NCBI RefSeq assembly: GCF_034059295.1
Contig: NZ_CP139141.1
Location: 3,331,001-3,395,000 of the forward strand
From: Pseudomonas sp. HR96
GTDB lineage: Bacteria > Pseudomonadota > Gammaproteobacteria > Pseudomonadales > Pseudomonadaceae
Direction: 5' to 3'
DNA: 64,000 bases
The notes below the pieces were generated by a model, which was given only the letters and a program-made list of their open reading frames with translations, ran no database searches and had not been told where the DNA came from. Positions within the stretch are counted from its first letter, which is position 1; each line of letters begins with the position of its first letter. This document shows, in pieces, positions 414 to 19,417 of the stretch. The position numbers and the translations under genes were made by a program.

Positions 414-520
414 GCGTTTGCAGGGGCAGCGCAGCCACGGCGCCATGGCGCTTGCCAGACCCGCGCGCGGCTCCGCACAATGGCCGCCAACCTACCTGCA
501 TCCGCCCTGCGAGCCCGCCG

Positions 521-1267
521 ATGAACCTTCACGACATTCCCGCCGCCGAATGGCAGGCGCGCTGCGACCTTGCGGCGCTGTATCGCCTGCTGGCGCACTT
601 TCGCATGACCGACCTGATCGACACGCACATTTCCCTGCGCCTGGACGACGGCAGCTTTTTGATCAACCGCTACGGCGTGCTGTTCGAACACATGAAGGCC
701 ACCGACCTGGTGCGCATCGACGGCGAAGGACAGGTCGTCGACCGGTTTTTCCCGCAGCATCGGGTCAACCGCGCCGGCTTCGTGATCCACTCGGCCATCC
801 ACGCCGCCCGCGCCGACCTGCACTGCGTGATTCACACCCACACCGCCGCCGGCATCGCTGTGGCGGCGCAGGCCAAGGGCCTGTTGCCGATCAGCCAGCA
901 CGCGCTGAAGTTCTACAACCGCCTGGGCTATCACCGTTACCAGGGCATTGCCCTGGACACCGCCGAACGCGATCAGCTGGTCCGCGATCTCGGGCCGCAC
1001 AGTGCGATGATCCTCTGCAACCATGGCTTGCTGGCGGCCGGCGGCAGCGTGGCCGAGGCCTTCCAGACCATTTTCATTCTGGAGCGCGCCTGCCAGGCGC
1101 AGGTTCAGGCCTTGGCCGGCGGCAGCGAGCTGCTGATACCGGACCCGGCTGTCTGCGAGTTCACCGCCCGGCAATTCGAGGACGACGATGGCGATGGCTT
1201 GATCCAGTTGGGTTGGGATGCGGCGTTGACGTTGATTGCCGGGCAGCGGGACGCGTATTGCGCGTGA
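521..1267 (+). CDS. Class II aldolase/adducin family protein
   Basis: A 248-residue protein from the ATG at 521; an in-frame TTG at 452 would add 23 residues lacking family similarity. It has the class II aldolase/adducin fold: zinc-ligand motif HTHTAAG (His105, His107) and a later CNHGLLAAG segment with a probable third His. The family includes fuculose- and ribulose-phosphate aldolases/epimerases, but many proteobacterial members of this length have no known substrate. It stands alone, 24 bases from a convergent permease gene. A role in cleaving a keto-acid made by the sugar regulon downstream is conceivable but unsupported by operon structure. Confidence 0.8.
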   Translation: MNLHDIPAAEWQARCDLAALYRLLAHFRMTDLIDTHISLRLDDGSFLINRYGVLFEHMKATDLVRIDGEGQVVDRFFPQHRVNRAGFVIHSAIHAARADLHCVIHTHTAAGIAVAAQAKGLLPISQHALKFYNRLGYHRYQGIALDTAERDQLVRDLGPHSAMILCNHGLLAAGGSVAEAFQTIFILERACQAQVQALAGGSELLIPDPAVCEFTARQFEDDDGDGLIQLGWDAALTLIAGQRDAYCA

Positions 1268-2352: not shown

Positions 2353-2365
2353 GTTGTACGACAAC
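2353..2365. promoter_or_regulatory. Putative FadR/GntR-type operator
   Basis: A perfect inverted repeat GTTGT-ACG-ACAAC lies 31 bases before the hydroxyacid dehydrogenase start. It fits the TnGTnnnACnA pattern bound by FadR-subfamily GntR regulators, and such a regulator is encoded immediately downstream (3335-4054), so it is the likely ligand. The site also lies between the divergent AEC permease and the dehydrogenase and could control both. Confidence 0.5.
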
Positions 2366-2396
2366 CGACGATAACAGACAAGAAAAGGAGTTGATG

Positions 2397-3344
2397 ATGT
2401 CCGACAGCCGCGTAGACGTATTGGTATGGGGGCCCATGCACGCCTCGCTGACGCAGAATCTGGCCCGCGACTTCAACGTGCACAACCTCTGGGAGCTCGA
2501 CGCGCTGGACAGCTGGCTGGACGAACATGGCGCCAAGGTCCGCGGCGTCGTCACCAGCGGTGTGTACGGTACGCGCATCGATGTGCTCGAGCGCCTGCCC
2601 AACCTGCAAGTGGTCAGCAGCTTTGGGGTCGGCTACGACGCCCTCGACATCGACTACCTGGCCGAGCGCAAGATCCCGGTCAGCAACACCCCGGACGTGC
2701 TCAACAACGCCGTGGCGGAAACTGCGTTGGCGCTGATGCTCAGCGTTTCGCGCAAGATCCCCCAGGCTGACCGTTTCGTGCGCGACGGCGCCTGGCTCAA
2801 GGGCAAGTTCCCCTTGGGCAACGACCTGGCCGGCAAGACCTGCGGCATCGTCGGTCTGGGCAAGATCGGCAAGACCATCGCCACTCGCGCCGCCGCCTTC
2901 GACATGAAAATCGCCTACTACCGCCGCGGCGAAGCCTACGCCGATGTCGCCTACCGCCATTACGGCGACCTGCGGGCGCTGGCCCGCGACGCCGATCACC
3001 TGGTGATCATCGTACCCGGCGGCGCCGACACCGAGCACCTGATCGACCGCGACGTACTCAAGGCGCTCGGGCCCAAGGGCCTCTTGATCAACGTGGCGCG
3101 GGGCTCGGTGGTCGACGAGCAAGCGTTGATCGCCGCGCTGCAGGCCGGCGAGATCGCTGGCGCCGGGCTCGACGTGTTCGAAGACGAACCCCGGGTTCCA
3201 GCCGAACTGATCGCCATGGACAACGTGGTGCTGACTCCGCACCTGGGCAGCGGCACCTACGAGACGCGCCAGGCCATGGCCGACCTGGTGTTCGCCAACC
3301 TGGCCGGATTCTTCAAGGACGGCACGCTGGTCACTCAGGTCTGA
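2397..3344 (+). CDS. D-isomer-specific 2-hydroxyacid dehydrogenase
   Basis: A 315-residue oxidoreductase of the D-2-hydroxyacid dehydrogenase/GhrB superfamily. The Rossmann motif GLGKIG is at 153-158. The catalytic Arg (NVARG, R235), Glu (FEDEP, E264) and His (TPHLG, H282) are all present. Two arginines (R176-R177) follow the second strand of the nucleotide domain where NAD-specific enzymes carry an acid, suggesting NADPH use in reducing a keto-acid such as glyoxylate or hydroxypyruvate. The chosen ATG is six bases after AAGGAG; ATG 2394 and TTG 2391 are alternatives. Its last codons overlap the convergent GntR gene by 10 bases, and a GntR-type operator precedes it. Confidence 0.9.
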   Translation: MSDSRVDVLVWGPMHASLTQNLARDFNVHNLWELDALDSWLDEHGAKVRGVVTSGVYGTRIDVLERLPNLQVVSSFGVGYDALDIDYLAERKIPVSNTPDVLNNAVAETALALMLSVSRKIPQADRFVRDGAWLKGKFPLGNDLAGKTCGIVGLGKIGKTIATRAAAFDMKIAYYRRGEAYADVAYRHYGDLRALARDADHLVIIVPGGADTEHLIDRDVLKALGPKGLLINVARGSVVDEQALIAALQAGEIAGAGLDVFEDEPRVPAELIAMDNVVLTPHLGSGTYETRQAMADLVFANLAGFFKDGTLVTQV

Positions 3345-4054
3345 GTTTCGCCGGCGAAACGCTCCAGGCTGTTGCACAGGTGCAGCAGCATGGCGGCTCG
3401 GGCGGCATCGGCATCCTGGCGCCGCAGGGCCGCGTAGATCGCCTCATGTTCGGCAATCGCCGCCTGGGCCAGCCGGGTCAGGTCAGTGGTGCCCTGCTCG
3501 TCCGGATGGATGCGGGTGCGCGGGATCATCGAGCTGCCCAAGTGGTAGATCACTTCGGTGAAGCAGGCGTTGCCGGTGGCCTCGGCGATCAGCCGATGAA
3601 AGCGAATGTCGGCAGCCACCGTCGCCTCCGGCTGGCCCTGGGCGCGTTGGTAATCATCCAGCGCCTGGCGCATGGCGGCCAACTGCGCCTCACTGCGCCG
3701 CCGCGCGGCCAGCGCCGCCGCCTGGGTCTCCAGGCCCATGCGCAGCTCCAGCACGCCGCGAATGCTCAGGGCCGTATCGCTCTTGAGCCGAAACCCTTCG
3801 CGCTGGTGCTGCTCCAGGACGAAGGTACCGATGCCATGGCGCGTCTCCACCAGGCCAGCCGCCTGCAGCTTGGAGATCGCCTCGCGGACCACCGTACGAC
3901 TGACCCCATGCTCGCGCACGATCATGGATTCGGAGGGCATTTTCTCGCCGGGCAAAATGCTGCCGGCGAGGATCCGCCGGGTCAGCTCGGCCACCAGGTC
4001 GTTGGCCAGGCCTGGGGCGCGTTTGCGCAACGGCGAGCGGGAGGTGTCGGGCAT
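3335..4054 (-). CDS. FadR-family GntR transcriptional regulator
   Basis: A 239-residue repressor-type protein with an N-terminal winged helix-turn-helix (residues 15-80, with the hallmark PGEKMPSE and SRTVVREA segments) and a C-terminal all-helical FCD ligand-binding domain (95-235) that in this subfamily binds metal and an organic acid. ATG 4054 is preferred; ATG 4084 would add ten residues. It is the last gene of the minus-strand run that begins with the ABC importer, 66 bases beyond the RidA stop, so it may be co-transcribed. The only matching operator seen is upstream of the hydroxyacid dehydrogenase, which makes that gene its likely target. Confidence 0.9.
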   Translation of the reverse strand: MPDTSRSPLRKRAPGLANDLVAELTRRILAGSILPGEKMPSESMIVREHGVSRTVVREAISKLQAAGLVETRHGIGTFVLEQHQREGFRLKSDTALSIRGVLELRMGLETQAAALAARRRSEAQLAAMRQALDDYQRAQGQPEATVAADIRFHRLIAEATGNACFTEVIYHLGSSMIPRTRIHPDEQGTTDLTRLAQAAIAEHEAIYAALRRQDADAARAAMLLHLCNSLERFAGETQT

Positions 4055-4120
4055 GATCGGTCCGCAGGGTGAAGGTGGCGCCATGTTACCACTGCGCTCG
4101 CCCGCACCCGCGTCTGGCGA

Positions 4121-4579
4121 TCAGTCGAGAATGCGAAAGATCGCTTCGATTTCCACGGTCATGTTGCCTGGCAGCGATCCCATGCCCACCGCCGAGCGCG
4201 CGTGACGGCCGCGCTCGCCGAGCACCTCGACGAACAGGTCGGAACAGCCATTGATGACCTGCGGGTGCTGGCCGAACTCGGCGGCGGCGTTGACCATGCC
4301 GAGGATCTTCACCGCTTCCAGGCGGTCGAGGTCGCCGCCCAGCGACTGCGCCGCTGCCAGCAGCGACAAGCCGGCCAGGCGCGCGTGCTGGTAGGCGTCG
4401 CCAATGGCGACCTCGCTGCCAACCTTGCCCTGATGGTAACCACCACTGTCGTTGCGCGGGCCCTGCCCGGAGAGATACAGCAGGTCGCCGACGCGCTTGC
4501 CGACCAGGTAGTTGGCCACAGGAGCGGGGACATCGGGCAAGCTCAGGCCTAGTGCGGCCAGACGTTCGAGTGCGTTCAA
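4121..4579 (-). CDS. RidA/YjgF-family enamine/imine deaminase
   Basis: A 152-residue member of the RidA (YjgF/YER057c/UK114) family, of the longer YjgH-like size. RidA proteins hydrolyse reactive enamines/imines released by PLP-dependent dehydratases to keto-acid plus ammonia. The start is taken as TTG 4579 because AGGAG lies seven bases before it. It follows the SDR stop by 16 bases in the same operon. Co-location with a PLP dehydratase (11114-12049) carrying the same operator type as this operon's promoter suggests that it processes that enzyme's product. The family Arg and Glu contacts were not mapped precisely. Confidence 0.85.
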   Translation of the reverse strand: MNALERLAALGLSLPDVPAPVANYLVGKRVGDLLYLSGQGPRNDSGGYHQGKVGSEVAIGDAYQHARLAGLSLLAAAQSLGGDLDRLEAVKILGMVNAAAEFGQHPQVINGCSDLFVEVLGERGRHARSAVGMGSLPGNMTVEIEAIFRILD

Positions 4580-4595
4580 CAGTATTCTCCTAGGG

Positions 4596-5381
4596 TTACT
4601 GCCAGGCGGCAGGGTCGGCAAAATCCTTGCTCTCCGGCAGGATCTGCCCACCATCGACGACGAGGGTGGTGCCGGTAATATAGGACGCTTCGTCGCAGGC
4701 GAGAAACAGTGCAGCGTTGGCCACGTCTTCGGGCAGGCCGAGGCGCCCCAGCGGGATGGACTTTTCCATGTTGTCGATGAAAGCCGGACTGCGCCCGGCG
4801 CTCAGGCCTTCGGTGAGGATGTTGCCCGGTTCGATGCCGTTGACGGTGATGCCGAAGCGGGCGAATTCCAGTGCCGCCGAGCGAATCAGGCCGTTGATCC
4901 CGGCCTTGCTCGAGGCATAGGCCGCCACGCCCGGGTTGGCCACCCGGGGCCCGGTGATCGACGACGTGAAGACCATGCGCCCACCGCCCTGCTCGCGCAT
5001 GGCCGGCAGGCACGCACGGGCCGCCAGGAAGGTGCCGGTCAGATTGACCGCCAGCACGTGCTGCCACTGCGCCAGGGTCATGTCCTCGAGCAGGTACGAG
5101 GGGTAGATCCCGGCGTTCTGCACCAGCACGTCGATACGCCCGAAACGGCTTTTGGCCAGGGCCGCCAGCGCCTGCATGTCGGCCTCCACAGCCACGTCCG
5201 ATTGCAGGAACACGGCGCGCTCGGCGCCCAGCTCCGTCACCAGCCTCGCGCCACTCTCGCCGTCCACGTCGCTGAGCACCAGCAGTGCCCCCTGCTCGGC
5301 GAAGCGTCGGGCAATGGCTGCGCCAATGCCCTTGGCCGCGCCGATGATGACCGCCACTCGATTGTTCAGACGCCCGTTCAT
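4596..5381 (-). CDS. SDR-family NAD-dependent dehydrogenase
   Basis: A 261-residue classical short-chain dehydrogenase. The nucleotide motif is GAAKGIG (14-20), NAG is at 89-91, and the catalytic Ser140/141, Tyr155 and Lys159 (YASSK) are present. Asp38 at the end of the second strand indicates preference for NAD+ over NADP+. ATG 5381 has GGAG eight bases upstream. Located between a sugar-binding protein and RidA, it most likely oxidises the imported sugar or its acid; sugar 1-dehydrogenases of this family commonly pair with lactonases like the amidohydrolase at 9700. The exact substrate is not visible. Confidence 0.9.
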   Translation of the reverse strand: MNGRLNNRVAVIIGAAKGIGAAIARRFAEQGALLVLSDVDGESGARLVTELGAERAVFLQSDVAVEADMQALAALAKSRFGRIDVLVQNAGIYPSYLLEDMTLAQWQHVLAVNLTGTFLAARACLPAMREQGGGRMVFTSSITGPRVANPGVAAYASSKAGINGLIRSAALEFARFGITVNGIEPGNILTEGLSAGRSPAFIDNMEKSIPLGRLGLPEDVANAALFLACDEASYITGTTLVVDGGQILPESKDFADPAAWQ

Positions 5382-5442
5382 TTGCTTACTCCGTTGCCCG
5401 GCGCGCCCCATCGGTGCGCCGGGTGCTACGCCTGGAAGCCGC

Positions 5443-6414
5443 TTATTTGCAGCTGGTCTTGTAGAAATACTGGCTGATGGCCTGATCTTTCATGTTCGCT
5501 CGGGTGGCCACCACGAACGGCAGGAAGTTGTCATGCTTGACGCTGGCCTTGTCCACCTGGTGGCGGATCAACTGGGCGCTGAGCTTCACCGCCTCATAGC
5601 CCATGTTGTACGGCTGCTGGATGATCAGCGCGTCGTAGATGCCGTCCTTCAGGTCGCGGATCTGCTGGGGATCGGCGTCGAACGAGACCAGTTTGACCTT
5701 GCCGCGCAGGCCGGCCTCCATGATTGCCGCGGAGGCGCCGGTGGCCGCTGCCGAGTGCGTCACATAGACACCCTTGAGATCAGGGTTGGCCTGGATCGCC
5801 GCCGCCACCTGCTGGGCCGCCTTGGTCGAACTGGTTTCCGGATAGGCCACCGGCAGCAGCCGGGCGTTGGGATGGTCCTTCTTGAAGGTGTCGACGAAGC
5901 CCTTGACCCGCGCATCGATGTCCGGCAAGCCCGGGCGCATGCCCACGGCGAGAAAGGTGCCGCTGTCGCCCGCCACCTCGACCATGGCCTTGGCGGCCGC
6001 GATGCCGCCGAGCAGGTGGTCGGACTGCACGCTCTGGGTTTCCGCCGGCTCGTTGAGCGGCGCATCCACGGTGATCACGTGGGTGCCTTTGCTTTCCAGG
6101 TCCTTGACCTGGGAGATGAGCGCGCCGCCATCGGTGGGCGCCAGCACGATGCCTTGCGGATGCAGCTGCAACGCGGCATCGATGAAGGGTTGCTGCAAGG
6201 CGATGTCCCAATCGGGCGGGCCGTTCCAGCCAAGGGTCACGTTGAACTCGCGGGCCGCCGCCTGCGCGCCGCACTGCATCGAGGAATAGAACGGGATGCC
6301 CACCTGCCCCGGCAGGAACGCCACGGTGACCGGGTCTTCGGCGCGTGCCTGCAAGGCGACGGTAACCGAGAGGACAGTTGCCAGCGTGACAGCTAACTTC
6401 ATTTTCATCGTCAT
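5443..6414 (-). CDS. Sugar ABC transporter periplasmic substrate-binding protein
   Basis: A 323-residue type I periplasmic binding protein (RbsB/FrcB group). A signal peptide of about 25 residues with a likely cut after ARA precedes a mature domain containing the hallmark VLAPTDGG and FDADPQQ segments. It delivers a sugar or related polyol to the permease encoded next to it. ATG 6414 is used; ATG 6408, better spaced from AGGTAG, would shorten the signal peptide by two residues. It lies 72 bases downstream of the permease and 61 bases before the SDR gene, within one operon. Confidence 0.9.
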   Translation of the reverse strand: MTMKMKLAVTLATVLSVTVALQARAEDPVTVAFLPGQVGIPFYSSMQCGAQAAAREFNVTLGWNGPPDWDIALQQPFIDAALQLHPQGIVLAPTDGGALISQVKDLESKGTHVITVDAPLNEPAETQSVQSDHLLGGIAAAKAMVEVAGDSGTFLAVGMRPGLPDIDARVKGFVDTFKKDHPNARLLPVAYPETSSTKAAQQVAAAIQANPDLKGVYVTHSAAATGASAAIMEAGLRGKVKLVSFDADPQQIRDLKDGIYDALIIQQPYNMGYEAVKLSAQLIRHQVDKASVKHDNFLPFVVATRANMKDQAISQYFYKTSCK

Positions 6415-6485
6415 CTACCTATAAGGGATTTACGTGTGGGGAATCGGGCTTGCCCGGCAACCGGGCGATGGCGGCCAGGGACCGC

Positions 6486-7517
6486 TCAGAAACCGGCCTG
6501 GCGATTGCGCTGGTCGATGTATACCGCAGCGATCACGATCAGCCCGACCAGGATCAGTTGGTAGAAGGAGTCCAGGCCCATGATCACCAGGCCGGTGCCG
6601 AGCACCACCGGAATCAGGGTGCCGACCAGGGTGCCCTGCACCGAGGCCGTGCCGCCGAACAGGCTGGTGCCGCCGATCACCGCCGCCGCCACGGCCTGCA
6701 GGTTGTCGGTCTGGTGGCCGCCGATGTTGGTGGTGGCAAAGCGCGAGATGTCGAGGAACGCCGCCACCCCGCAGAGCAATCCCATGAGCCCGAACAGCTT
6801 GAGCAGGTGCAGGTTGTTGTCGATACCGGCACGGCGCGCCGCATCGGCCGAAGACCCCAGCGCCAGGGTGTGAATGCCGAAGCGGGTCTTGGCGAGCATG
6901 AACCACAGCAGCATCACCAGTGCCAGCGACAGCACCACCGGCAGTGGCACCAGGTCGAACAAACGGTAGGTGGCAAAGTCGGTCTGCAGGTTGCGCGGGA
7001 TGTCCGGCACGTTGGCGCCATGGGTCAGCACCAGCGCCAGGCCCAGGCCGATGGCGGTGGTCGCCAGGGTCACCAGAAACGAGCTCAGGCGCAGCCGGGT
7101 CACCAGCAGGCCATTGATCAGGCCAAACAGCGTGCCGCAGACCAGCGCCACGAGAACCCCGGCCGTCACGGCCAGCCCGAGATGCGGGTACTCGCCCATC
7201 GCCACCTCGTCTGCGGTACCGGCCAGTGCCGTGATGGTGCGCGCCGCCAGGACCGAGGCCAGCACCACGTTGGAACCTACCGACAGGTCGAACTCCTTGG
7301 CGCCCAGCAGAAAGGTCATGCCCACCGCCAGCAGCACCAGTTGCGAGGCATTGAGCGCGATGTTGAAGAAGTTGTTCAGGCTGAGGAAGGCATGGTTGGG
7401 CGAGATCAGCGAAAACAGGGTGACCAGGCCAAGCAGTATCAGCAGCATCCAGAAAGCGGTGGTCTCGCGCAGCCGCGAAAACCAGGTGGAACCGTCGTCA
7501 TAAGCCAGTGTGTTCAC
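6486..7517 (-). CDS. Sugar ABC transporter permease (RbsC/FrcC-like)
   Basis: A 343-residue polytopic membrane protein of the branched-chain/ribose permease family, with about ten hydrophobic segments and the family motifs KEFDLSVGS and GGTSLFGG. It forms the channel of the importer with the ATPase encoded upstream and the binding protein downstream. GTG 7517 is preferred because CGAGG lies about seven bases before it; ATG 7541 would add eight residues without a visible ribosome binding site. Only one permease gene is present, so a homodimer is expected, as for RbsC. Confidence 0.9.
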   Translation of the reverse strand: MNTLAYDDGSTWFSRLRETTAFWMLLILLGLVTLFSLISPNHAFLSLNNFFNIALNASQLVLLAVGMTFLLGAKEFDLSVGSNVVLASVLAARTITALAGTADEVAMGEYPHLGLAVTAGVLVALVCGTLFGLINGLLVTRLRLSSFLVTLATTAIGLGLALVLTHGANVPDIPRNLQTDFATYRLFDLVPLPVVLSLALVMLLWFMLAKTRFGIHTLALGSSADAARRAGIDNNLHLLKLFGLMGLLCGVAAFLDISRFATTNIGGHQTDNLQAVAAAVIGGTSLFGGTASVQGTLVGTLIPVVLGTGLVIMGLDSFYQLILVGLIVIAAVYIDQRNRQAGF

Positions 7518-7594
7518 GGTAAAGCCTCGTGCGCAGATCATTGAAGGCGGCAGTTCAAGGCACTACAAATCGACAGACCCGTCAGTGGGGTGAT

Positions 7595-8410
7595 TCAGGC
7601 GTTCTTTGCGCCCAGCATCACATCCACCACGTCGCGCAGCGTGACCTGGGAGGGAATCAGGTTGGCCACCGCCACGCCCTGGCGCATCACCACGATGCGG
7701 TCGGCCAGCTCCAGCACCTGGGGCAGGTCGTGGGAAATCAGCAGCACCGCCAGATTGCGCCGAGCAGCGGCGCGGATGGCCTCGTAGACCATGTCGCGCT
7801 GGCGGGTGCCCAGTGCGGCGGTAGGCTCGTCCAGCAAAATCGCGTGGCGCGCCCACTTGATCGCCCGGGCAATGGCCACGCCCTGGCGCTGGCCACCGGA
7901 AAGGCTCTGGGTGGCGGCCCGATAGGATTTGAGCCGGGCGCCCAGTTCGGTGAGGATGCGCGTCGACTCGGCGAGCATCTGGCCGTGGTCGAGCATGCCC
8001 AGGTGCCCTCGCCAGCCAGGCGCCTTGAGCTCACGGCCCAGATACACGTTCTGCGCCACCGACAGGTCGGGTGCCAGGGCCAGGTCCTGGTACACCGTCT
8101 CGATTCCGAACGCCTGGGCATCCTGGGTCGAGCGCAGCAGCACTTCCCTGCCGTCGACGCAGAGTTGGCCACCGGTGGGCACGTGCTCGCCGCTGAGCAC
8201 TTTCATGAAGGTGGATTTGCCGGCGCCGTTGTCGCCGACCACGGCGGTGATCTCACCGCGGTACAGCTCCATCGACACGCCCCGCAGCACTTCCAGCGAG
8301 CCGAAGTTCTTGGTGATACCGATGGCTTGCAAAGCCGGTTCGCGGCGCCCGGTCAAGGGCAGCTGCGGCGCCCCCTGGGGGCTGCTTGCGGTCAGTTGAG
8401 GTGAATGCAT
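7595..8410 (-). CDS. Sugar ABC transporter ATPase, single-domain (FrcA-like)
   Basis: A 271-residue ATP-binding protein with Walker A GDNGAGKS (59-66), Q-loop Q108, signature LSGGQ (170-174), Walker B ILLDEP (191-196, Glu195) and a switch His in LISHD. RbsA-type proteins have two such domains in about 500 residues; this one has a single domain, as in the rhizobial fructose importer FrcBCA, and probably works as a homodimer. It is the first gene of the minus-strand operon, starting 72 bases after a predicted -10 element and just after two LacI-type operators. Confidence 0.92.
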   Translation of the reverse strand: MHSPQLTASSPQGAPQLPLTGRREPALQAIGITKNFGSLEVLRGVSMELYRGEITAVVGDNGAGKSTFMKVLSGEHVPTGGQLCVDGREVLLRSTQDAQAFGIETVYQDLALAPDLSVAQNVYLGRELKAPGWRGHLGMLDHGQMLAESTRILTELGARLKSYRAATQSLSGGQRQGVAIARAIKWARHAILLDEPTAALGTRQRDMVYEAIRAAARRNLAVLLISHDLPQVLELADRIVVMRQGVAVANLIPSQVTLRDVVDVMLGAKNA

Positions 8411-8442
8411 GTCGCGCCTCGGAAAATGTCGTAGACTTGCAA

Positions 8443-8456
8443 CGCAATCGATTGAC
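8443..8456. promoter_or_regulatory. LacI-type operator O1
   Basis: CGCAATCGATTGAC shares the AATCGATT core with two other sites and directly abuts O2. It lies within the 5' leader of the ABC operon transcript, where a bound repressor would block transcription. Confidence 0.55.
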
Positions 8457-8469
8457 GTAATCGATTACG
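8456..8469. promoter_or_regulatory. LacI-type operator O2, perfect palindrome
   Basis: CGTAATCGATTACG is a perfect 14-base palindrome with the central CG step typical of LacI/PurR-family sites. It begins about 12 bases downstream of the -10 element of the ABC operon promoter and is shared by the intergenic region of the divergent lacI-family gene, so autoregulation is also possible. Confidence 0.65.
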
Positions 8470-8481
8470 TTGTCCGTTACT

Positions 8482-8511
8482 TTTATAGTGGCGCAGTGCT
8501 CTCTACGTCAA
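8482..8511 (-). promoter_or_regulatory. Sigma70-type promoter of the ABC operon
   Basis: On the minus strand TTGACG (8506-8511) and TATAAA (8482-8487) are separated by 18 bases, a near-consensus housekeeping promoter. Transcription would start near 8475, placing both LacI-type operators at about +5 to +32. Confidence 0.6.
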
Positions 8512-8584
8512 CACAATTGTCATCGATTTGCCCCGGTCTTTTTCCTGGCCGCTTCCCGAGACTGTCGTAAAGGATTGGAAACCT

Positions 8585-9658
8585 TTGAAAACAAACAAGA
8601 AACCCACCATGCAGGACGTCGCCCGGGAAGCCGGGGTGTCCACCGCCACCGTGTCCCGAGTACTGGCCGGGTTCAAGGGCGCCACCTCCGATGAAACCGC
8701 CAAGCGAGTGCGCGACGTCGCCGCCAGCCTTGGCTATGTGGTCAATTCGGTTGCCGCCAGCCTGCGCAAGGAGCGCTCCTCCTCCGTAGGCCTGATCCTC
8801 GCCGACGTCGCCAACCCGTTCTTCGGCAGCCTGGCCAGCGGCGTCGAGCAGACCCTGACCAGCCAAGGCTTCAGCGTGCTGCTGGCCAGCTCCGGCAACG
8901 ACGCGGACGAGGAACAGCGCCTGCTGCGTCTGATGGCCGAAAAGCAGGTGGACGCCGTGATCATTGCCAGCTCTGCGGCCAGCGGTGCACACATCAACGA
9001 GGCCATCGCCCGCGGCATGCGCATCGTGCTGGTGGACTCCGAGCTCCCCGACGTCGACGCCGACACTGTGGTGGTCGACAACCAGGCTGCGGCCCGTTCG
9101 GCCATCGAGCATCTGCTGGACCTTGGCCATCGGCAGATCGCCATTGTCACCGGCCAGCTGCAAGCCTCGTTCGACCGCGAACGCCTTGCCGGCTACCAGC
9201 AGGCTCTGGCCGGGCGCGGCCTCAAGCCGTTGAAAAAACTCACCCTTGGCGGCGACTCCAGCTACGAGGGCGGCCGCACTGCGGTGGCCCAGCTGTTGCG
9301 CAAGCAACCGGGGGTCACGGCGATCTTCGCCAGCAACAACCTGATGAGCATGGGCGCCATCACCGCTGTGCTCGAAGCCGGGCTGCGCCTGCCCGAGGAC
9401 ATCTCGCTGGTGGGCTTCGACGACATGGAGTGGTACCCCATCTTCAAGCCAGCCATCAGCGCCGTCGCCCAGCCGGCCTATCAGCTGGGTCAGGTGGCCG
9501 CGCAGCGCCTGCTCGAACGCTTCGCCGCCGACAGCGTGCTGCCCTGTACCCGGGTGGTGCTGCCGACGCAATTGATCGTGCGGGCCAGTACTGCGGTGCC
9601 CAGCCCCTCGACCTCAGCCCTTCGAAGTCAGGCCCTGAAAACCACACTCGGCCGCTGA
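8585..9658 (+). CDS. LacI-family transcriptional regulator
   Basis: A 357-residue repressor with an N-terminal LacI helix-turn-helix (TMQDVAREAGVS, then TVSRVL) and hinge, followed by a periplasmic-binding-protein-like effector domain with the typical GFDDMEW segment. No ATG gives a complete DNA-binding head, so TTG 8585, preceded by AAAGGA, is the likely start. It is divergent from the ABC operon, and palindromic operators with a central CG lie between them, so it almost certainly represses the importer and is relieved by the substrate or an early catabolite. The amidohydrolase follows after 41 bases in the same direction and is probably co-transcribed. Confidence 0.9.
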   Translation: MKTNKKPTMQDVAREAGVSTATVSRVLAGFKGATSDETAKRVRDVAASLGYVVNSVAASLRKERSSSVGLILADVANPFFGSLASGVEQTLTSQGFSVLLASSGNDADEEQRLLRLMAEKQVDAVIIASSAASGAHINEAIARGMRIVLVDSELPDVDADTVVVDNQAAARSAIEHLLDLGHRQIAIVTGQLQASFDRERLAGYQQALAGRGLKPLKKLTLGGDSSYEGGRTAVAQLLRKQPGVTAIFASNNLMSMGAITAVLEAGLRLPEDISLVGFDDMEWYPIFKPAISAVAQPAYQLGQVAAQRLLERFAADSVLPCTRVVLPTQLIVRASTAVPSPSTSALRSQALKTTLGR

Positions 9659-9699
9659 CAGCCGGCCCTGCAACCCCCTTCCATTCCCGAGGTATTGCC

Positions 9700-10551
9700 A
9701 TGCCGTCGTTTGCCCTGGTCGATGCACACGTCCACTACTACGATCCAGCGCAGCTGGACTATCCCTGGCTGGACAATGTCCCTGCCATCAAGGGTACCTA
9801 TACGCCGGCGGACTTCGTGACGGCCAGCCGCGGCGTCGCCGTCGACAAGCAGGTGTTCGTCGAGGTGGATGTAGCGCCCGGCCAGGAGCTGGCCGAGGCG
9901 CGCTTTGTCGAAGGCCTGGCCAGGCTCGAGCCGCGCATCCAGGGTATCGTCGCTTCAGCGGCGATCGAGCGCGGCGACGCGGTCAATGCCGAGCTCGATC
10001 GACTGCAGGACATAGGCCTGCTGCGTGGCGTGCGGCGGCTGATCCAGTATCATCCGGCGGCCGACTACTGCCTGCAGCCGGCCTTCGTCGAGGGCGTGCA
10101 GCAGCTGGGTCGACGCGGCCTGAGTTTCGATATCTGCATCCGCCACGGGCAGCTGGCCAGCGCCACTGAGCTGGTGCGCCGCTGTCCGGATGTGCAGTTC
10201 GTGCTTGACCACATCGCCAAGCCGGCTATCGCCGCCGGCCTGCGCGAGCCCTGGTGGCAGCAGATGCACGACATTGCCGCGCTGCCCAATGTGGTGTGCA
10301 AAGTCACCGGGGTGGTCACCGAGGCCGACCCGCAGCGCTGGACCCTGGAGCAGATCCGGCCGTACATCGAGCACAGCATCGAGTGCTTCGGCTTCGACCG
10401 GGTACTGTTCGCCAGCGATTGGCCGGTGCTGAACCTGGCCAGCGCCTATCCGGCCTGGGTGGCAATCATGGATGAGCTGCTGGGAGGCTGCTCGGCCAGC
10501 GAACGTCAGCGTTTCTACCGCGACAACGCAATCGCCACCTATCGGCTCTGA
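9700..10551 (+). CDS. TIM-barrel amidohydrolase/lactonase (COG3618 type)
   Basis: A 283-residue metal-dependent hydrolase of the amidohydrolase 2 superfamily. The N-terminal metal-binding HxH is His10/His12 (DAHVHYYD), and the C-terminal metal Asp lies in FASDWP. Characterised relatives include L-rhamnono-, L-fucono- and galactarolactonases and 4-sulfomuconolactonase. With an SDR and a sugar importer close by, opening of a sugar lactone is the most economical role. ATG 9700 has GAGG at a good distance. Its last 13 bases overlap the convergent NADAR gene. Confidence 0.85.
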   Translation: MPSFALVDAHVHYYDPAQLDYPWLDNVPAIKGTYTPADFVTASRGVAVDKQVFVEVDVAPGQELAEARFVEGLARLEPRIQGIVASAAIERGDAVNAELDRLQDIGLLRGVRRLIQYHPAADYCLQPAFVEGVQQLGRRGLSFDICIRHGQLASATELVRRCPDVQFVLDHIAKPAIAAGLREPWWQQMHDIAALPNVVCKVTGVVTEADPQRWTLEQIRPYIEHSIECFGFDRVLFASDWPVLNLASAYPAWVAIMDELLGGCSASERQRFYRDNAIATYRL

Positions 10552-11009
10552 CGGCTGTTCTGCTCCCTGTACTCATGACGCAGAGCCATGAGTATCTTGC
10601 CCAGCAGATTGCTGCCCTGCCCCTGGTATTGGCCCCAGTAGCGCGCCACCTCGCTGTCGTCCGGTGACCACTCCACCAGCCGGGCGCTGCCGGTGGCCAG
10701 CAGCAGTTCGCGCAGGTCGGCGTGCTGGGCAAACTTGGCGCGCACGATGTCGGTCATGATCTCCAAGTGGTCGCGCTGCCAATGCTCGACGGTCTGCTCC
10801 GCGCTCAAGGCATCCCCCGCCACCGCCACCAGTTCCGGTGTCGGTGCCGCCATCAGCCAGGGTCGCAGTGGCGCACGGGCCTTGAGCACCTGGAAGGCGT
10901 GTTCGGCGGTAGCGTAGTGCACACCCAGGTAGTGCATCACGCGCGGGTGCAAGTTGCTCAGCGCACAGTAATCGCCCTGCCGGGGATCGTAGAATCTGAT
11001 GTCGTTCAT
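10539..11009 (-). CDS. NADAR-family protein (YbiA-like)
   Basis: A 156-residue protein of the NADAR superfamily (former DUF1768): N-terminal FYDP...CALSN, central YATAEHAFQ and C-terminal SNLLGKILM segments match the conserved pocket. Family members are N-glycosidases: YbiA/RibX acts on damaged riboflavin intermediates, and others remove ADP-ribose from nucleic acid. ATG 11009 has GGGAG about eight bases upstream. It sits opposite the flanking catabolic genes and has no obvious functional link to them. Whether it repairs metabolites or reverses ADP-ribosylation cannot be told from sequence alone. Confidence 0.85.
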   Translation of the reverse strand: MNDIRFYDPRQGDYCALSNLHPRVMHYLGVHYATAEHAFQVLKARAPLRPWLMAAPTPELVAVAGDALSAEQTVEHWQRDHLEIMTDIVRAKFAQHADLRELLLATGSARLVEWSPDDSEVARYWGQYQGQGSNLLGKILMALRHEYREQNSRQSR

Positions 11010-11082
11010 GGCCTGGCTCCCTCGACGCGCAAGCCGAATGGCTTGCTCCCGAGGGGCACTCTATGGTGAGATGAAAAAAACA

Positions 11083-11096
11083 CGCAATCGATTACG
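11083..11096. promoter_or_regulatory. LacI-type operator O3
   Basis: CGCAATCGATTACG combines the left half of O1 with the right half of O2 upstream of the ABC operon. It ends 17 bases before the preferred start of the PLP dehydratase, where a repressor would block transcription or initiation, so that gene is probably in the same LacI regulon. Confidence 0.6.
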
Positions 11097-11113
11097 TGAC
11101 CTCAGGTGCCGCC

Positions 11114-12049
11114 GTGATTACCCTTGATGATATCCAGCTTGCCGCCCCACGCATTGCCCCGTTCATTCGCCACACGCCGATGCTGCAGGCCAGCAGCCTG
11201 CGCCACCCGGTCACCGCCGCCGACCTGTGGCTCAAGCTCGAATGCCTGCAACCCACCGGCTCTTTCAAGGTGCGCGGGGCCAGCAACCGTTTGCTGACCA
11301 CCCCTGTCGAGGCGCTGCGCAACGGCATCGTCACCGCCTCGGGCGGCAACCACGGCCTGGCCACCGCCCGCGCCGCCAGCGTCGCCGGGGTCACGGCGAA
11401 CATCTTCGTGCCGCGCAGCATTACCGAGGCGAAGCTGGCCAGGCTCGCCAGCTGGGGCGCCGAAGTTCAGGTGGTCGGCGAGGTCTGGGATCAAGCCAAC
11501 GAGCAGGCGCTGCTGTTTGCCGCCGAACACCAGGCGGCCTACTTCCACCCGTTCGCCGACCCCGCCGTGGTGGCCGGGCAAGGCACCCTGGGCCTTGAGA
11601 TCCTCGCCCAGCTGCCGGACGTCGAGGTGATTCTGGTGGCCATCGGCGGCGGCGGCCTGGTGGCCGGCATCGTCACCGCAATCAAGGCCCTCAAGCCCTC
11701 GGTGCGGATCATCGGCATCGAGCCGCAGGGTTCGCCGACCCTGCACGCCAGCCTGGCCGCGCAGCAGGTGGTGCGTCTGCCCAGCGTCACCACCCGAGTC
11801 GCGACCATGGCCTGTGGCCGCACCGAAGAACGGGTGTTCGAGCTGGCCCGCCAGGGCCTGGAAGAGATCGTACTGGTCAGCGACGACGAACTGCTGCAGG
11901 CGGCGCAGTGGCTGTGGTTCGAGCTGGGTCTGGCGGCCGACCTGAGCGGCGCCGCCGCGATCGCAGCGCTCAGGTCCGGCAAGCTGCAATTCGCCGCCGG
12001 GACGCAGGTCTGTGCGCTGGTGTGCGGGGCCGGGGCCGAGGGGCTCTAG
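11114..12049 (+). CDS. PLP-dependent threonine/serine dehydratase family protein
   Basis: A 311-residue fold-type II PLP enzyme. The Schiff-base lysine is K52 in GSFKVRGAS, the substrate loop is SGGNHG (77-81), and the phosphate-binding glycine loop is GGGG at 178-181. It has no C-terminal ACT domain, so it is a catabolic type not subject to isoleucine feedback. Such enzymes dehydrate beta-hydroxy-alpha-amino acids to an enamine. GTG 11114 is chosen; GTG 11096 would place the start codon inside a LacI-type operator. The operator ties it to the sugar importer operon, whose RidA protein would hydrolyse its imine product. L-threonine/serine or a 2-amino-aldonic acid are possible substrates. Confidence 0.85.
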   Translation: MITLDDIQLAAPRIAPFIRHTPMLQASSLRHPVTAADLWLKLECLQPTGSFKVRGASNRLLTTPVEALRNGIVTASGGNHGLATARAASVAGVTANIFVPRSITEAKLARLASWGAEVQVVGEVWDQANEQALLFAAEHQAAYFHPFADPAVVAGQGTLGLEILAQLPDVEVILVAIGGGGLVAGIVTAIKALKPSVRIIGIEPQGSPTLHASLAAQQVVRLPSVTTRVATMACGRTEERVFELARQGLEEIVLVSDDELLQAAQWLWFELGLAADLSGAAAIAALRSGKLQFAAGTQVCALVCGAGAEGL

Positions 12050-13754: not shown

Positions 13755-14729
13755 ATGATCAGCGATGAAAGTTACAGCAGGCTGTTCGACTCCATTACCG
13801 AGGCCCACCAAGCCCTGCGACCCGGCGTGGCAGTCACGCCTCTGGCGCACAGCCCTCGATTGTCAGCTCAGAGCGGTGCGCAGCTGTACCTCAAGTGCGA
13901 ACACCTGCAACACACCGGCTCGTTCAAATTCCGCGGAGCCAGCAACAAGGTTCGCCTGCTGACAGCAGCGCAGCGCCGCGTCGGCGTCATCACCGCCTCC
14001 TCCGGCAATCATGGCCAAGGGCTGGCCTTGGCCGCCCGGGAAGCAGGGGTGCCCGTCACCGTGTATGCCTGCGCCGACGCCTCGGCGTTCAAGCTCGATG
14101 CGATTCGGGCACTGGGCGCCGAGGTCATCACTCTGGACAGCGACCCCCTGAGCGTCGAACTGCATGCTGCAGAGCAAGCGCGGCGCCAGGGCCAGCTCTA
14201 CGTTTCGCCCTACAACGACACCCAGGTCATCGCCGGCCAGGGCACCATCGGCCTGGAGCTGCTCGAACAGCTGCCCGATGTCGATGCGGTGTTCGTCGCC
14301 GTGGGTGGCGGCGGCCTGATCTCGGGCATCGGCACTGCTATCAAGCGCCTGCGGCCCGGCACCGAGATCATTGGCTGCTGGCCGAGCAACGCGCCGGCCA
14401 TGGAGCGATGCCTGGCGGCCGGGCAAATCGTCGACGTGGCCGAGACCGACACCCTGTCCGATGGTACCGCCGGGGGTGTCGAACCTGGCAGCATCACCTT
14501 CCCTCTCTGCCAGCGGGTGATCGACCGCCGAGTGCTGGTCAGCGAAGCCGAGATCCGCGCAGCGCTGCAGGCGGCCGCCCGGCACGAACGCTGGATCATC
14601 GAAGGCGCGGCCGGCGTGGCCCTGGCCGGGGCCCTGCAACTGGCCGCGCAGTACCAGGGCAAGCGGGTGGCGGTGATCATCTGCGGGCGCAACATTCTTC
14701 TGGAAAAATTCCTCGGAGCCGTGCAATGA
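13755..14729 (+). CDS. PLP-dependent threonine/serine dehydratase (EutB-like)
   Basis: A 324-residue fold-type II PLP enzyme: Schiff-base lysine K58 in GSFKFRGAS, SSGNHG loop and a GGGGLISG phosphate loop, without an ACT domain. It overlaps the following ornithine cyclodeaminase-family gene by four bases (ATGA), so the two are translationally coupled. The same pairing occurs as EutB/EutC in hydroxyectoine breakdown, but no other ectoine genes are here, so the assignment is by analogy only. The product would be an enamine/imine or keto-acid that its partner could reduce or cyclise. Confidence 0.85.
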   Translation: MISDESYSRLFDSITEAHQALRPGVAVTPLAHSPRLSAQSGAQLYLKCEHLQHTGSFKFRGASNKVRLLTAAQRRVGVITASSGNHGQGLALAAREAGVPVTVYACADASAFKLDAIRALGAEVITLDSDPLSVELHAAEQARRQGQLYVSPYNDTQVIAGQGTIGLELLEQLPDVDAVFVAVGGGGLISGIGTAIKRLRPGTEIIGCWPSNAPAMERCLAAGQIVDVAETDTLSDGTAGGVEPGSITFPLCQRVIDRRVLVSEAEIRAALQAAARHERWIIEGAAGVALAGALQLAAQYQGKRVAVIICGRNILLEKFLGAVQ

Positions 14730-15676
14730 AGCTGTTCGACCTGCCCTGTATCGCCGCCGCCGTGGACCCGGCCGAAGCCGCCGAACAGATTCGCCTGGGC
14801 TTCATCGCCTACTCGCAAGGCCGGGTCAAGGTGCCGCCGGTGCAGAACTTCGTGTTTGCGCCAGCCAACGGCGACTGCTGCGTGAAATCGGCCTGGGTCG
14901 AGGGCAGCGACAGCTTCACGGTGAAGATTTCTACCGGCTTCTATGACAACCCGACGCGCGGCTTGCCCAGCAACGACGGGCTGATGCTGGTGCTCTCGGC
15001 GTTGACCGGCCAGCCGCTGGCGCTGCTCCAGGACGAGGGCTGGCTGACCGGCCTGCGCACCGCCCTGGCTGGCCAGATCGTCGCCCGGGCCCTGGCGCCG
15101 GCGCAGGTGGAGGCCATCGGCATCTTCGGCACCGGCAGCCAGGCGCGGCTGCAGCTCGAACACCTGCTGCCGGTCACCGACTGCCGCCACGTGCTGGTCT
15201 GGGGCCGGCACGACGAGGCTCTGCACCGTTACCGCGAATTCGCCGAAGGGCTGGGCCTGCGCGTCACCACCACCCGGCATGCCGAAGAAGTCGCGCGCCA
15301 GGCCAACCTGATCGTCACCACCACGCCATCGCGCGAGGCGCTGCTGCAGCGCCAGTGGCTTCGGCCGGGCAGCCATATCACCGCAGTGGGTGCCGACAGC
15401 CCGGGCAAGCAGGAGCTGGATGCGCAGCTGGTGGCGGCGGCCGAGGTCATCGTTGTCGACTCCATCGCCCAGTGCAGCCTGTACGGCGAGGTGTCCCACG
15501 CCCTCAAGGCCGGGCTGATCGAGCGCTCGCGCCTGCTGGAGCTCGGCCAGTTGCTGGCCGGCGAAGGCCAGGGCCGCCGCGACGACCGGCAGATCACCCT
15601 GGCCGACCTGACCGGGGTGGCGGTGCAGGATGCGCAGATCGCCCGCTATGCCGTGCAGGCCTGCAGCCGCGTCTGA
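14726..15676 (+). CDS. Ornithine cyclodeaminase/mu-crystallin family protein (EutC-like)
   Basis: A 316-residue NAD(P)-binding protein of the OCD/mu-crystallin family, with the Rossmann motif GIFGTGSQAR at 132-141, a conserved lysine near K67 (TVKIS) and the LTGLRTALAG segment matching the family's substrate-arginine region. Family members include ornithine cyclodeaminase, alanine dehydrogenase, ketimine reductase and lysine cyclodeaminase. The ATG at 14726 overlaps the preceding stop. Coupling to a PLP dehydratase suggests that it reduces the imine made by that enzyme or acts on the same amino acid. The true reaction is unknown. Confidence 0.85.
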   Translation: MKLFDLPCIAAAVDPAEAAEQIRLGFIAYSQGRVKVPPVQNFVFAPANGDCCVKSAWVEGSDSFTVKISTGFYDNPTRGLPSNDGLMLVLSALTGQPLALLQDEGWLTGLRTALAGQIVARALAPAQVEAIGIFGTGSQARLQLEHLLPVTDCRHVLVWGRHDEALHRYREFAEGLGLRVTTTRHAEEVARQANLIVTTTPSREALLQRQWLRPGSHITAVGADSPGKQELDAQLVAAAEVIVVDSIAQCSLYGEVSHALKAGLIERSRLLELGQLLAGEGQGRRDDRQITLADLTGVAVQDAQIARYAVQACSRV

Positions 15677-16018: not shown

Positions 16019-18349
16019 GTGATCCCCCAATCCTCATCGCTTGATTGGCTGCGGCGCGTTCTGCTGCTGGTGTGCGTGGTCACCCTGGGCTGGCTGTGGG
16101 GTCTCTGTGCCCAGCAGAAGTTCTCGGCGCAACGTGAAGCGCTCGAGGCCAAGGCCGCCGAACACCTGAACCTGGCAACCGTCGCCGCCGAGGACATCGG
16201 CCAGTGGGTCGACCGCGCGCAAACCCTCGGCAAGCTCGCGCGGCGCAGCGCCGCCGACCTCGACCCGGGGCGCGGCGGGGTTGCGCGGATGCTCGCCGAA
16301 GATCCGCTGATCAAGCGCCTGAGCCTTTACGACCCGCAGGGCATTCGTCTGTCGACCACCGACCCCGATGAGCCGCAAACCCTCCCGGCGAATTGGCTGG
16401 AGCAGATCCAGCGTCACCGCGACCGCTATGGCTACACCCCGCTGATGCCCGGCCTCGCTCAAGCCTCGCCCCCCCAAGCCACGCGCGAGCAGCTGCCGTT
16501 TCTGCTGCCGCTGATCGACCCAGCCACCGACAAGCTGGACGCGATCATGCTGGTGCAGCTGGATGCCGGCTACCTGGCTGCCCTGTTCAAGCACATCGAG
16601 TTGGGCGCCAGCGGCATGCTGCGCCTGCTTGACCAGGACGGCCAGGAACGCTTGCGCCTCGACAACCGCGGCATCGCTGCCGCTGGCGCCGCCCTCAGCC
16701 CGGCGCTGCCCAGCGGCGGCGACGAGTACGGCGAGTTTACCCAGCAATCCAGCACCGCCGCGTACCAGAGCCTGTATCGGCGCATGCCGCAGCGCGGCTT
16801 TTCGGTCGTGGTCAGCCAGCAGCGCGACGAGATTCTCGCCCCCGCGTGCGCCCGCCTGGGTCGACAGCTGTGGCTGAACCTGGCGATGACGATCTTCATC
16901 GTCGCCGGCATGTGGTGGATCCTGCGGGGCCTCAGCCGCCGCCATCAGGCGTTCGAAGCGCTGGAAGAGGCACAGCAGGTCAATCAGCAGCTGATCAGCC
17001 GCCTCGAGGAGCAGCACCAGCACAGCAGCAAGGCCGCCGCCACTGACCACCTGAGCGGCCTGCACAATCGCCGCCACTTCCTTGAAATCGCCCACGAAAC
17101 CCTGCTGCGCCAGCGCAACCGTCGGCGCCTGATGGCACTGCTGTTCATCGACATGGACCGCTTCAAATCCATCAACGACTCGCTGGGGCACAAGGTCGGC
17201 GACCTTCTGCTGCAGGCCATCGCCCGGCGCATCGAGCGTCTGCTCGAACCGACCGACACAGCCGCGCGCTTTGGCGGCGATGAATTCGTCGTGCTGCTGG
17301 CCGGCAAGCGCACCGAGGCGCAGATCGAAGCCTGGGTCAGCCGATTGGTCAGCAGCGTCAGCGTGCCATACGTGATCGACGGCCAGCAGCTGAACACCAG
17401 CCCCAGCGTCGGCGTCAGCGTGTGCCCACGGGACGGCCAGAACGTCGAACAGGCGATTCGACATGCCGATGCGGCGATGTATTCGGCCAAGAGAGCCGGC
17501 CGTGCGCAGTATCGTTTCTTCGACCCGTCGCTGAACGTCAGCGACGTCAAGGACTTTCTCCTTGAACAAGCGTTTGCCGCAGCGCTGAGCGACCGTCAGT
17601 TCGTCCTGCACTTTCAGCCTCAGGTCAACCTCGCCAGCATGTGCGTGGACAGTTACGAGGCGCTGGTGCGCTGGCAGCACCCGGAGTTCGGCCTGCTCTA
17701 CCCCGATCGTTTCATCGACCTGGCCGAGCGCAGTGGCTTCATTGTCGCGCTGGGCTGGGAGGTGCTGCGCCTGGCCTGCGAGGAACTGTCGCAGTGGCGG
17801 GTCGAAGGCAAAAGCATGGTCGTCGCCATCAACGTCTCGCCCCTGCAGCTGCGTCAGGCGGATTTCAGTTACCGCGTGCTGGCCGAATTGCAGAAGCGGC
17901 ACATCGTCCCGCACCACCTGGAAATTGAAATCACCGAAACCATCGTGATCGACGACGAACCCCTGGCCATCGCTCACCTGCAAAGGCTGCGCGAAGCCGG
18001 CATGCAGATCAGCCTCGACGACTTCGGCAAGGGCTATGCCGGATTCGGCCATCTACAGAAGCTGCCACTGACCAAGCTGAAGATCGACCGCAGCGTGATC
18101 GCCCCGCTGGTCAACAGCCCGGACGACAGCCCGATCGTTTCCTCGACCATCATTCTGGCCAAGCGCATGGGCCTGACGGTGGTGGCCGAGGGCGTGGAAA
18201 CTCGCGAGAACCTGATCTGCCTGCGTCTGGCCGGCTGCGATGCGGTGCAGGGTTATCATTTCAGCCGGCCGCTGTCGGCGGTTCAGTTGCGCGCCTACGC
18301 GCCCTTTCGCCAACCACGGGAAAAAGCCAGCGCGCATCAGCAGCTTTAG
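16019..18349 (+). CDS. Membrane c-di-GMP enzyme with GGDEF and EAL domains
   Basis: A 776-residue signalling protein: transmembrane helix at about 10-30, periplasmic sensor region to about 285, a second helix at about 285-305 and a short coiled coil. The GGDEF domain has an intact GGDEF at 419-423. The EAL domain has EAL at 547-549 and the metal/catalytic motifs NVSPLQL, EITET, DDFGKGY, KIDRS, EGVET and QGY. Both diguanylate cyclase and phosphodiesterase activities look possible. The inhibitory RxxD site before GGDEF is absent (EPTD instead). GTG 16019 is the only plausible start before the first helix. The gene stands alone, so its partner pathway is unknown. Confidence 0.9.
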   Translation: MIPQSSSLDWLRRVLLLVCVVTLGWLWGLCAQQKFSAQREALEAKAAEHLNLATVAAEDIGQWVDRAQTLGKLARRSAADLDPGRGGVARMLAEDPLIKRLSLYDPQGIRLSTTDPDEPQTLPANWLEQIQRHRDRYGYTPLMPGLAQASPPQATREQLPFLLPLIDPATDKLDAIMLVQLDAGYLAALFKHIELGASGMLRLLDQDGQERLRLDNRGIAAAGAALSPALPSGGDEYGEFTQQSSTAAYQSLYRRMPQRGFSVVVSQQRDEILAPACARLGRQLWLNLAMTIFIVAGMWWILRGLSRRHQAFEALEEAQQVNQQLISRLEEQHQHSSKAAATDHLSGLHNRRHFLEIAHETLLRQRNRRRLMALLFIDMDRFKSINDSLGHKVGDLLLQAIARRIERLLEPTDTAARFGGDEFVVLLAGKRTEAQIEAWVSRLVSSVSVPYVIDGQQLNTSPSVGVSVCPRDGQNVEQAIRHADAAMYSAKRAGRAQYRFFDPSLNVSDVKDFLLEQAFAAALSDRQFVLHFQPQVNLASMCVDSYEALVRWQHPEFGLLYPDRFIDLAERSGFIVALGWEVLRLACEELSQWRVEGKSMVVAINVSPLQLRQADFSYRVLAELQKRHIVPHHLEIEITETIVIDDEPLAIAHLQRLREAGMQISLDDFGKGYAGFGHLQKLPLTKLKIDRSVIAPLVNSPDDSPIVSSTIILAKRMGLTVVAEGVETRENLICLRLAGCDAVQGYHFSRPLSAVQLRAYAPFRQPREKASAHQQL

Positions 18350-19311: not shown

Positions 19312-19417
19312 GGACAAGCTCCTCGAAATGGCGTCGCCAGGATAGGCACAGCACCCGCCTGAGTGCTTTCAAAAACCTGACCTGACTTTGCCCACCGCGA
19401 TTGAGTAACATGGCACC

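Follow-up and report, generated by a model that had tools for sequence, protein, structure and literature searches.

A conserved sugar-importer, lactonase, NADAR and dehydratase cassette in Pseudomonas sp. HR96 and a possible oxidative route for an unphosphorylated 2-amino sugar

Between positions 2353 and 12049 of a 64,000-nucleotide stretch of the Pseudomonas sp. HR96 genome (the whole stretch is hereafter called the window), a sugar importer stands among genes for oxidation, lactone opening and deamination, raising the question of which of these genes form one system and what that system degrades. In an earlier note they were read as an oxidative pathway for a 2-amino sugar or hydroxy amino acid under two regulators, of the LacI and FadR/GntR types. 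Open reading frames and family model scans of the window located every gene named there at about the position given, with its family upheld; the list was incomplete, however, because a NADAR gene at 10539-11009 had been overlooked, although it is one of eight genes that are conserved. The conserved unit spans about 4121-12049, not all of 2353-12049, and contains the following features.

4121 to about 4597, minus strand: putative RidA-type imine hydrolase (Pfam PF14588); start uncertain, the open frame reaching 4654
4596-5411, minus strand: short-chain dehydrogenase/reductase (SDR), by family scans; in all seven cassettes
5443-6414, minus strand: CUT2-type periplasmic binding protein (PF13407); in all seven cassettes
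6486-7541, minus strand: CUT2-type permease (PF02653); in all seven cassettes
7595-8410, minus strand: ATP-binding cassette (ABC) ATPase of 271 residues with one nucleotide-binding domain, matching the first half only of CUT2 ATPase models of about 500 positions; in all seven cassettes
8456-8469: putative LacI-type operator, CGTAATCGATTACG, in the importer/lacI divergent promoter
8528-9658, plus strand: LacI-family regulator, by family scan
about 9691-10551, plus strand: COG3618-type amidohydrolase, probable sugar lactonase (PF04909)
10539-11009, minus strand: predicted NADAR (YbiA-type) N-glycosidase (TIGR02464, 85.2 bits against a cut-off of 73.7)
11083-11096: second putative operator, CGTAATCGATTGCG on the minus strand, in the dehydratase/NADAR divergent promoter
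11096-12049, plus strand: predicted fold-type-II, pyridoxal phosphate (PLP)-dependent beta-hydroxy amino acid dehydratase (PALP, PF00291); relatives place the true start a few codons downstream of 11096

Eight genes, RidA not among them, keep one order and orientation in the window and six further genomes, which belong to two classes: dehydratase, NADAR, lactonase, LacI, ATPase, permease, binding protein and SDR. A search with the binding protein gave ten loci, five of them with close relatives (71-91% identity), and cassettes were seen in P. bohemica (L002), Brenneria alni (L003), P. typographi (L004), Sodalis sp. dw_96 (L005) and Ancylobacter lacus (L007). The seventh cassette (L110), from the same order as Ancylobacter, turned up when 397 genomes were searched with the lactonase. 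Across the seven, the eight core proteins vary together, their pairwise identities correlating at 0.64-0.96. Importer, SDR, lactonase and PLP dehydratase are thus one unit, as had been proposed, by conserved order and by a putative operator common to all seven cassettes. The expectation that dehydratase and RidA would both be kept with the importer in related genomes was borne out for the dehydratase (7 of 7) and not for RidA, which adjoins the SDR gene in the three Pseudomonas cassettes only. No RidA relative was detected at 1e-8 in the Brenneria and Sodalis genomes, nor in the 19.5-kb stretch searched around L110, and the Ancylobacter genome has only distant relatives (44 and 40%, at 1e-8), away from the cassette.

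The operator sequence GTAATCGATTRC is present in both the importer/lacI and the dehydratase/NADAR intergenic regions of all seven cassettes, and the seven LacI copies closely resemble one another in the DNA-binding region. Because both divergent promoters carry the same operator, dehydratase and NADAR are inferred to belong to the regulon of importer, SDR and lactonase, with LacI as the repressor presumed to bind there. In the 5.87-Mb genome that holds the window, exact GTAATCGATTRC occurs at two places, both in the cassette. The same is true of P. typographi and Ancylobacter (two each), while P. bohemica, Brenneria and Sodalis have three, three and six places, respectively, two of them in the cassette in each case. 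A uniform-base expectation, by our own arithmetic, is about one place per genome, and a reversed control pattern was found nowhere in the six genomes scanned. The two-regulator scheme of the earlier note did not hold, given that one LacI-type operator covers both promoters and that GntR relatives in other Pseudomonas stand without the cassette.

Further occurrences of the operator were noted in Sodalis. At L005:513-4197, a second lacI beside the cassette is flanked by two copies of the operator sequence, which face one gene of the enolase superfamily and one for an aminotransferase. At L078:5064-6559, the operator stands 98 bases upstream of a Sugar_tr-family transporter, a possible extra member of the regulon.

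The distribution of the cassette is patchy. NADAR genes like that of the window were found in 4 of 298 Pseudomonas genomes (1e-25), namely its own, the probable P. bohemica genome (66%) and two at 45%; at 1e-30, 1 of 385 genomes of the Ancylobacter class and 1 of 198 of the Brenneria family had one, each being the genome (Ancylobacter or Brenneria) on which the comparison was centred. The dehydratase clade (1e-75) was confined to 2 of 229 Pseudomonas genomes, its own and the probable P. bohemica genome, both cassette carriers. As a control, the lactonase search found 37 places, of which one was that of Ancylobacter lacus and the other 36 were fetched (L117, L122, L130 and L131 are short or near contig ends, so that their neighbourhoods are incomplete). 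Only L110 was a complete cassette; the other 35, with 43-58% lactonase identity, had no NADAR or dehydratase match at 1e-10 and no 12-base operator. Among plasmids, lactonase relatives stand in different gene contexts in Roseibium, Nitratireductor and Aureimonas AU20 (59%, the best), and another lies on an unannotated stretch of S. meliloti; the binding protein had no match in plasmids at 1e-50. Around an importer relative in Gemmiger (L006), no dehydratase, NADAR or lactonase match was detected at 1e-8 within 20.9 kb. The flanks on both sides of every locus were also compared by their open frames (1e-10). The loci of the window, P. bohemica, P. typographi, Brenneria and Sodalis had no flanking protein in common with other loci, except for one 30% match between ABC-type ATPases of L004 and L007. 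Next to the cassette end lies an Hda-like gene in Brenneria and a gene for the small chain of ribonucleotide reductase in P. typographi, each on the opposite strand. Base composition of the cassettes lies within about 0.03 of their surroundings, the exception being P. bohemica (0.614 against 0.549). Patchy distribution, constant order and mostly differing flanks together suggest that the cassette probably moves horizontally as a complete unit. P. typographi and P. bohemica are listed as isolates from bark beetles (PMC7564387, PMC5953339).

On the Aureimonas AU20 plasmid (L025), the lactonase relative is accompanied by a mannitol dehydrogenase, an SDR, a GntR regulator and a different sugar importer, a gene set that probably serves a different oxidative sugar pathway.

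The residues of the encoded enzymes were then compared across the seven copies. All SDR copies have GxxxGIG, a Ser, YxxxK and an Asp after beta-2, for which reason the protein is probably an NAD-dependent sugar 1-dehydrogenase. The lactonase has HxH, LDH and SDWP in common with 4dlf by alignment, and its best NCBIfam model is L-fuconolactonase (L-fucono-1,5-lactonase model NF052480, 153.7 bits, below the cut-off of 400). For LacI, the best model is a ribose repressor, again with a score below cut-off. The closest solved chain to the binding protein by sequence is 5dkv; rhizopine import was rejected as an assignment (binding protein model NF052284, 79.6 bits against a cut-off of 420), as was ribose import, with scores far below cut-offs. 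The single-domain ATPase differs from the usual CUT2 tandem of about 500 residues, and its relatives in the other cassettes and in Gemmiger are likewise single-domain, judged by frame length. RidA carries the Arg and Glu of the active class (HARSAVG and VEIEAI, by alignment to 8v8r and 3d01), which excerpts of PMC4433059 give as the criterion for that class.

For NADAR, residues were compared through alignment to Escherichia coli YbiA (2b3w) and the residue list in the available part of PMC11543638. Glu36 and Glu113 are present in all seven copies, and Lys43 in six, with Arg in Ancylobacter. The position of the pyrophosphate-binding Arg79, as mapped by spacing, is Asp in all seven, which suggests that the substrate is unphosphorylated. 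In excerpts of two papers, NADAR/YbiA proteins are described in the contexts of riboflavin intermediates, guanine ADP-ribose, motility and trans-splicing, with a clean-up role proposed for YbiA in riboflavin synthesis (PMC11125620, PMC11543638); the cassette protein is of the same family and keeps the catalytic glutamates, but differs in its place in a sugar-import regulon and in the Asp at the pyrophosphate arginine position.

The dehydratase did not reach the cut-off of its model (PRK08246, 298.6 bits against 331). Its PLP lysine, Lys58, and an SGGNH motif are present in all seven copies; SGGNH corresponds to SSGNH in serine racemase 5cvc and SAGNH in TdcB, and an ATMACGRT segment (ATLACGRT in one copy) to ADG in serine racemase and TdcB. 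The Ser at the corresponding position is the re-face serine of serine racemases. Its replacement by Gly favours an L-configured C2, and taken with the altered segment favours, as substrate, an amino acid of L configuration whose side chain differs from those of serine and threonine.

In the two Alphaproteobacteria, Ancylobacter lacus and L110, three common genes were observed directly after the SDR gene, on the same strand and closely spaced, at the position held by RidA in Pseudomonas.

L007:11809-14246 and L110:15429-17946, SDR strand: N-demethylase-like gene trio (Pfam DmmA-like, HODM_asu-like)

They encode a DmmA-like protein (42% identity between the two; Pfam cut-off passed in L110 and missed in L007), a reductase with flavin adenine dinucleotide- or DmmA-like and 2Fe-2S parts (50%), and a protein like the alpha subunit of haem-dependent oxidative N-demethylase (PF11927, 64%). 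Among 148 records compared, the first and third matched only between these two loci, and the reductase additionally one Roseibium locus; the trio had no match in the window or in the other four cassette loci. The likeness of these three genes to dimethylamine monooxygenase and haem-dependent oxidative N-demethylase suggests that, in the two Alphaproteobacteria, the substrate or an intermediate is an N-methylated amine.

The reading that we favour, at a little under an even chance (about 0.47), is that an unphosphorylated 2-amino sugar is imported and oxidised to its lactone and acid, and that the acid is deaminated. The NAD-type SDR would oxidise C1 of the 2-amino sugar to give a 2-amino-aldonolactone, the lactonase would open it, and the PLP dehydratase would remove water and ammonia from the resulting 2-amino-3-hydroxy acid to give a 2-keto-3-deoxy aldonate, assisted by RidA in Pseudomonas. 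This chemistry, already put forward in the earlier note, is consistent with the conserved unit; the amino-sugar substrate is still one that we infer. A nitrogen-bearing substrate is favoured because N-demethylase-like genes share the operon in two relatives, where that system would first free an N-methylated amine. NADAR would hydrolyse a C1-N glycosylamine, most likely free amine-aldose adducts as a clean-up enzyme and possibly the imported substrate itself. The 2-keto-3-deoxy aldonate would enter central metabolism by enzymes outside the cassette: neither sugar-acid dehydratase, kinase nor aldolase was detected in the conserved unit among its open frames and family scans, and KDPG-aldolase-family genes are present in all six cassette genomes examined. 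D-Mannosaminate, L-fucosaminate and L-glucosaminate all have the L configuration at C2, which suits a fold-type-II enzyme, so that the substrate is probably mannosamine-, fucosamine- or L-glucosamine-like and not D-glucosamine; N-methyl-L-glucosamine would fit both the L configuration and the N-methylation.

SDR and lactonase fall in one predicted regulon here, as in oxidative sugar pathways, among which is also the route for L-fucose. In such pathways the sugar acid passes through an aldolase and dehydratases from other families, whereas the cassette has a PLP dehydratase and NADAR instead. The proposed oxidation resembles that of sulfoquinovose in P. putida, in which an SDR forms a lactone that is then opened, and the SDRs that form sugar lactones include N-acetyl-D-mannosamine dehydrogenase (both from excerpts of PMC12133307). 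The nearest parallel for deamination is the ong cluster of Pseudoalteromonas for oxidised N-acetylglucosamine (GlcNAc1A), in which a PLP enzyme converts an unphosphorylated 2-amino-aldonate to 2-keto-3-deoxygluconate (KDG), as proposed for the cassette, and a RidA-family gene is essential; RidA accompanies three of seven cassettes. The eight ong genes differ in including a deacetylase, a kinase, a hexosaminidase, transporters and an RpiR-type regulator, with no SDR, lactonase or NADAR listed in the available part of the paper, where the term lactonase does not occur (PMC9537276).

More specifically, and only tentatively, NADAR may be a dedicated catabolic enzyme of a mobile pathway. What is taken up and degraded through NADAR, SDR, lactonase and the fold-type-II dehydratase would then be a glycosylamine without phosphate or a 2-amino sugar of L configuration, carrying an N-methyl group in the Alphaproteobacteria. 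A literature search, judged from listings, covering few subscription journals and not extended to N-demethylases, gave no account of such a route and no paper linking NADAR to fuconolactonase, threonine dehydratase or a sugar importer. Gene order and the common operator connect the protein with a regulon for sugar breakdown, so that a metabolic role for it can be tested directly; if the proposal is true, the cassette gives bacteria, bark-beetle associates among them, a further way to degrade a nitrogen-bearing sugar.

Several observations weigh against the favoured pathway. Around the two Pseudomonas NADAR genes at about 45%, no cassette gene was seen within about 1.5 kb. Aureimonas endophytica may hold a cassette that lacks NADAR: a binding protein (74%) and a lactonase (63%) apparently lie on the same contig, and none of the 48 NADAR proteins listed was from there. 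That NADAR is kept more strictly than RidA is odd both for a clean-up enzyme and for a route through imine hydrolysis. The dehydratase pocket is unlike that of serine racemase and TdcB, so its substrate may not be a 2-amino-aldonate, and OngC, the PLP enzyme described for D-glucosaminate, is of fold type III, in contrast to the fold type II of the cassette enzyme (PMC9537276, in excerpt). The scores of binding protein, LacI, lactonase and dehydratase stay below every specific family cut-off, and of the 25 models listed for the SDR, the broad subfamily PRK07231 is the only one passed (227.5 against 215). As for the operator, exact sites also lie outside the cassette (one in P. bohemica, one in Brenneria and four in Sodalis); the count within the window is weak, in that four strand matches with up to two mismatches, sites being counted on both strands, are reached in 2 of 100 shuffles; and the 8-base core AATCGATT occurs in 2 of the 35 non-cassette lactonase loci, about 1.4 and 6.4 kb from the lactonase. 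The N-demethylase-like genes accompany only two of seven cassettes and could be an adjacent methylamine pathway.

The best surviving alternative, although unlikely, is that a glycosylamine of a hydroxy amino acid, or a similar compound, is imported and cut first by NADAR, SDR and lactonase then oxidising the freed sugar to an aldonate, for example gluconate, and the freed L-hydroxy amino acid being deaminated by the dehydratase. All four conserved enzymes would then carry out reactions typical of their families with no further dedicated enzyme, NADAR and dehydratase have one promoter region in common, and the retained Glu pair with Asp at the Arg position (as mapped by spacing) fits an unphosphorylated substrate; NADAR nevertheless stands away from the importer operon, simple N-glycosyl amino acids are unstable, and we know of no natural source of them. 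It is more doubtful still that importer, SDR and lactonase serve a neutral sugar and that NADAR and dehydratase are merely co-induced for nitrogen supply or damage repair. The sub-threshold L-fuconolactonase and ribose repressor models would agree with this, as would the repair roles of NADAR/YbiA proteins elsewhere (excerpts of PMC11125620 and PMC11543638), yet eight genes co-occur strictly with one operator across two classes, the unit is without a sugar-acid dehydratase, and two operons include N-demethylase-like genes. That the genes of 2353-12049 are simply unrelated neighbours is very improbable, being contradicted for 4121-12049 by order and shared operator in seven genomes, although the left part (hydroxyacid dehydrogenase, GntR and aldolase) does appear unrelated.

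The genes of that left part are as follows.

452-1267, plus strand: class II aldolase, by family scan; outside the unit
2391-3344, plus strand: 2-hydroxyacid dehydrogenase, by family scan; outside the unit
3335-4084, minus strand: FadR/GntR regulator, by family scan; outside the unit

The earlier note had placed the dehydrogenase, and perhaps the aldolase, in the pathway; together with GntR they were rejected as members, as no match was seen at 1e-5 in the stretches around the six related cassettes. The AEC transporter, EutC, GNAT and TrmK genes of the window likewise had no match there. No hydroxyacid dehydrogenase stood beside the GntR relatives of 19 further Pseudomonas loci, most of them covered for about 1.5 kb either way and one truncated, nor beside those in seven 19-kb stretches taken from seven of these genomes; in one of the stretches (L057), a 37% match lies at a distance of about 4 kb. 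In two other Pseudomonas (L044 and L045), the GntR relative adjoins a TrmK relative; the TrmK gene of the window lies on the other side of the cassette.

Beyond the cassette, an EutB/EutC-like pair occupies 13755-15676; it consists of a second PLP dehydratase (PRK06815, 527 bits against a cut-off of 371) and an overlapping gene of the ornithine cyclodeaminase family (PRK06823, 496 bits against 438). It was rejected as a member, since matches to EutB in the six loci are at 34-40% and fall on the cassette dehydratase where positions were checked, and EutC has none. A third PALP-family gene, at 18346-19317, stands beside an AraC-type regulator and an amidase, so that three PALP genes lie within 8.2 kb.

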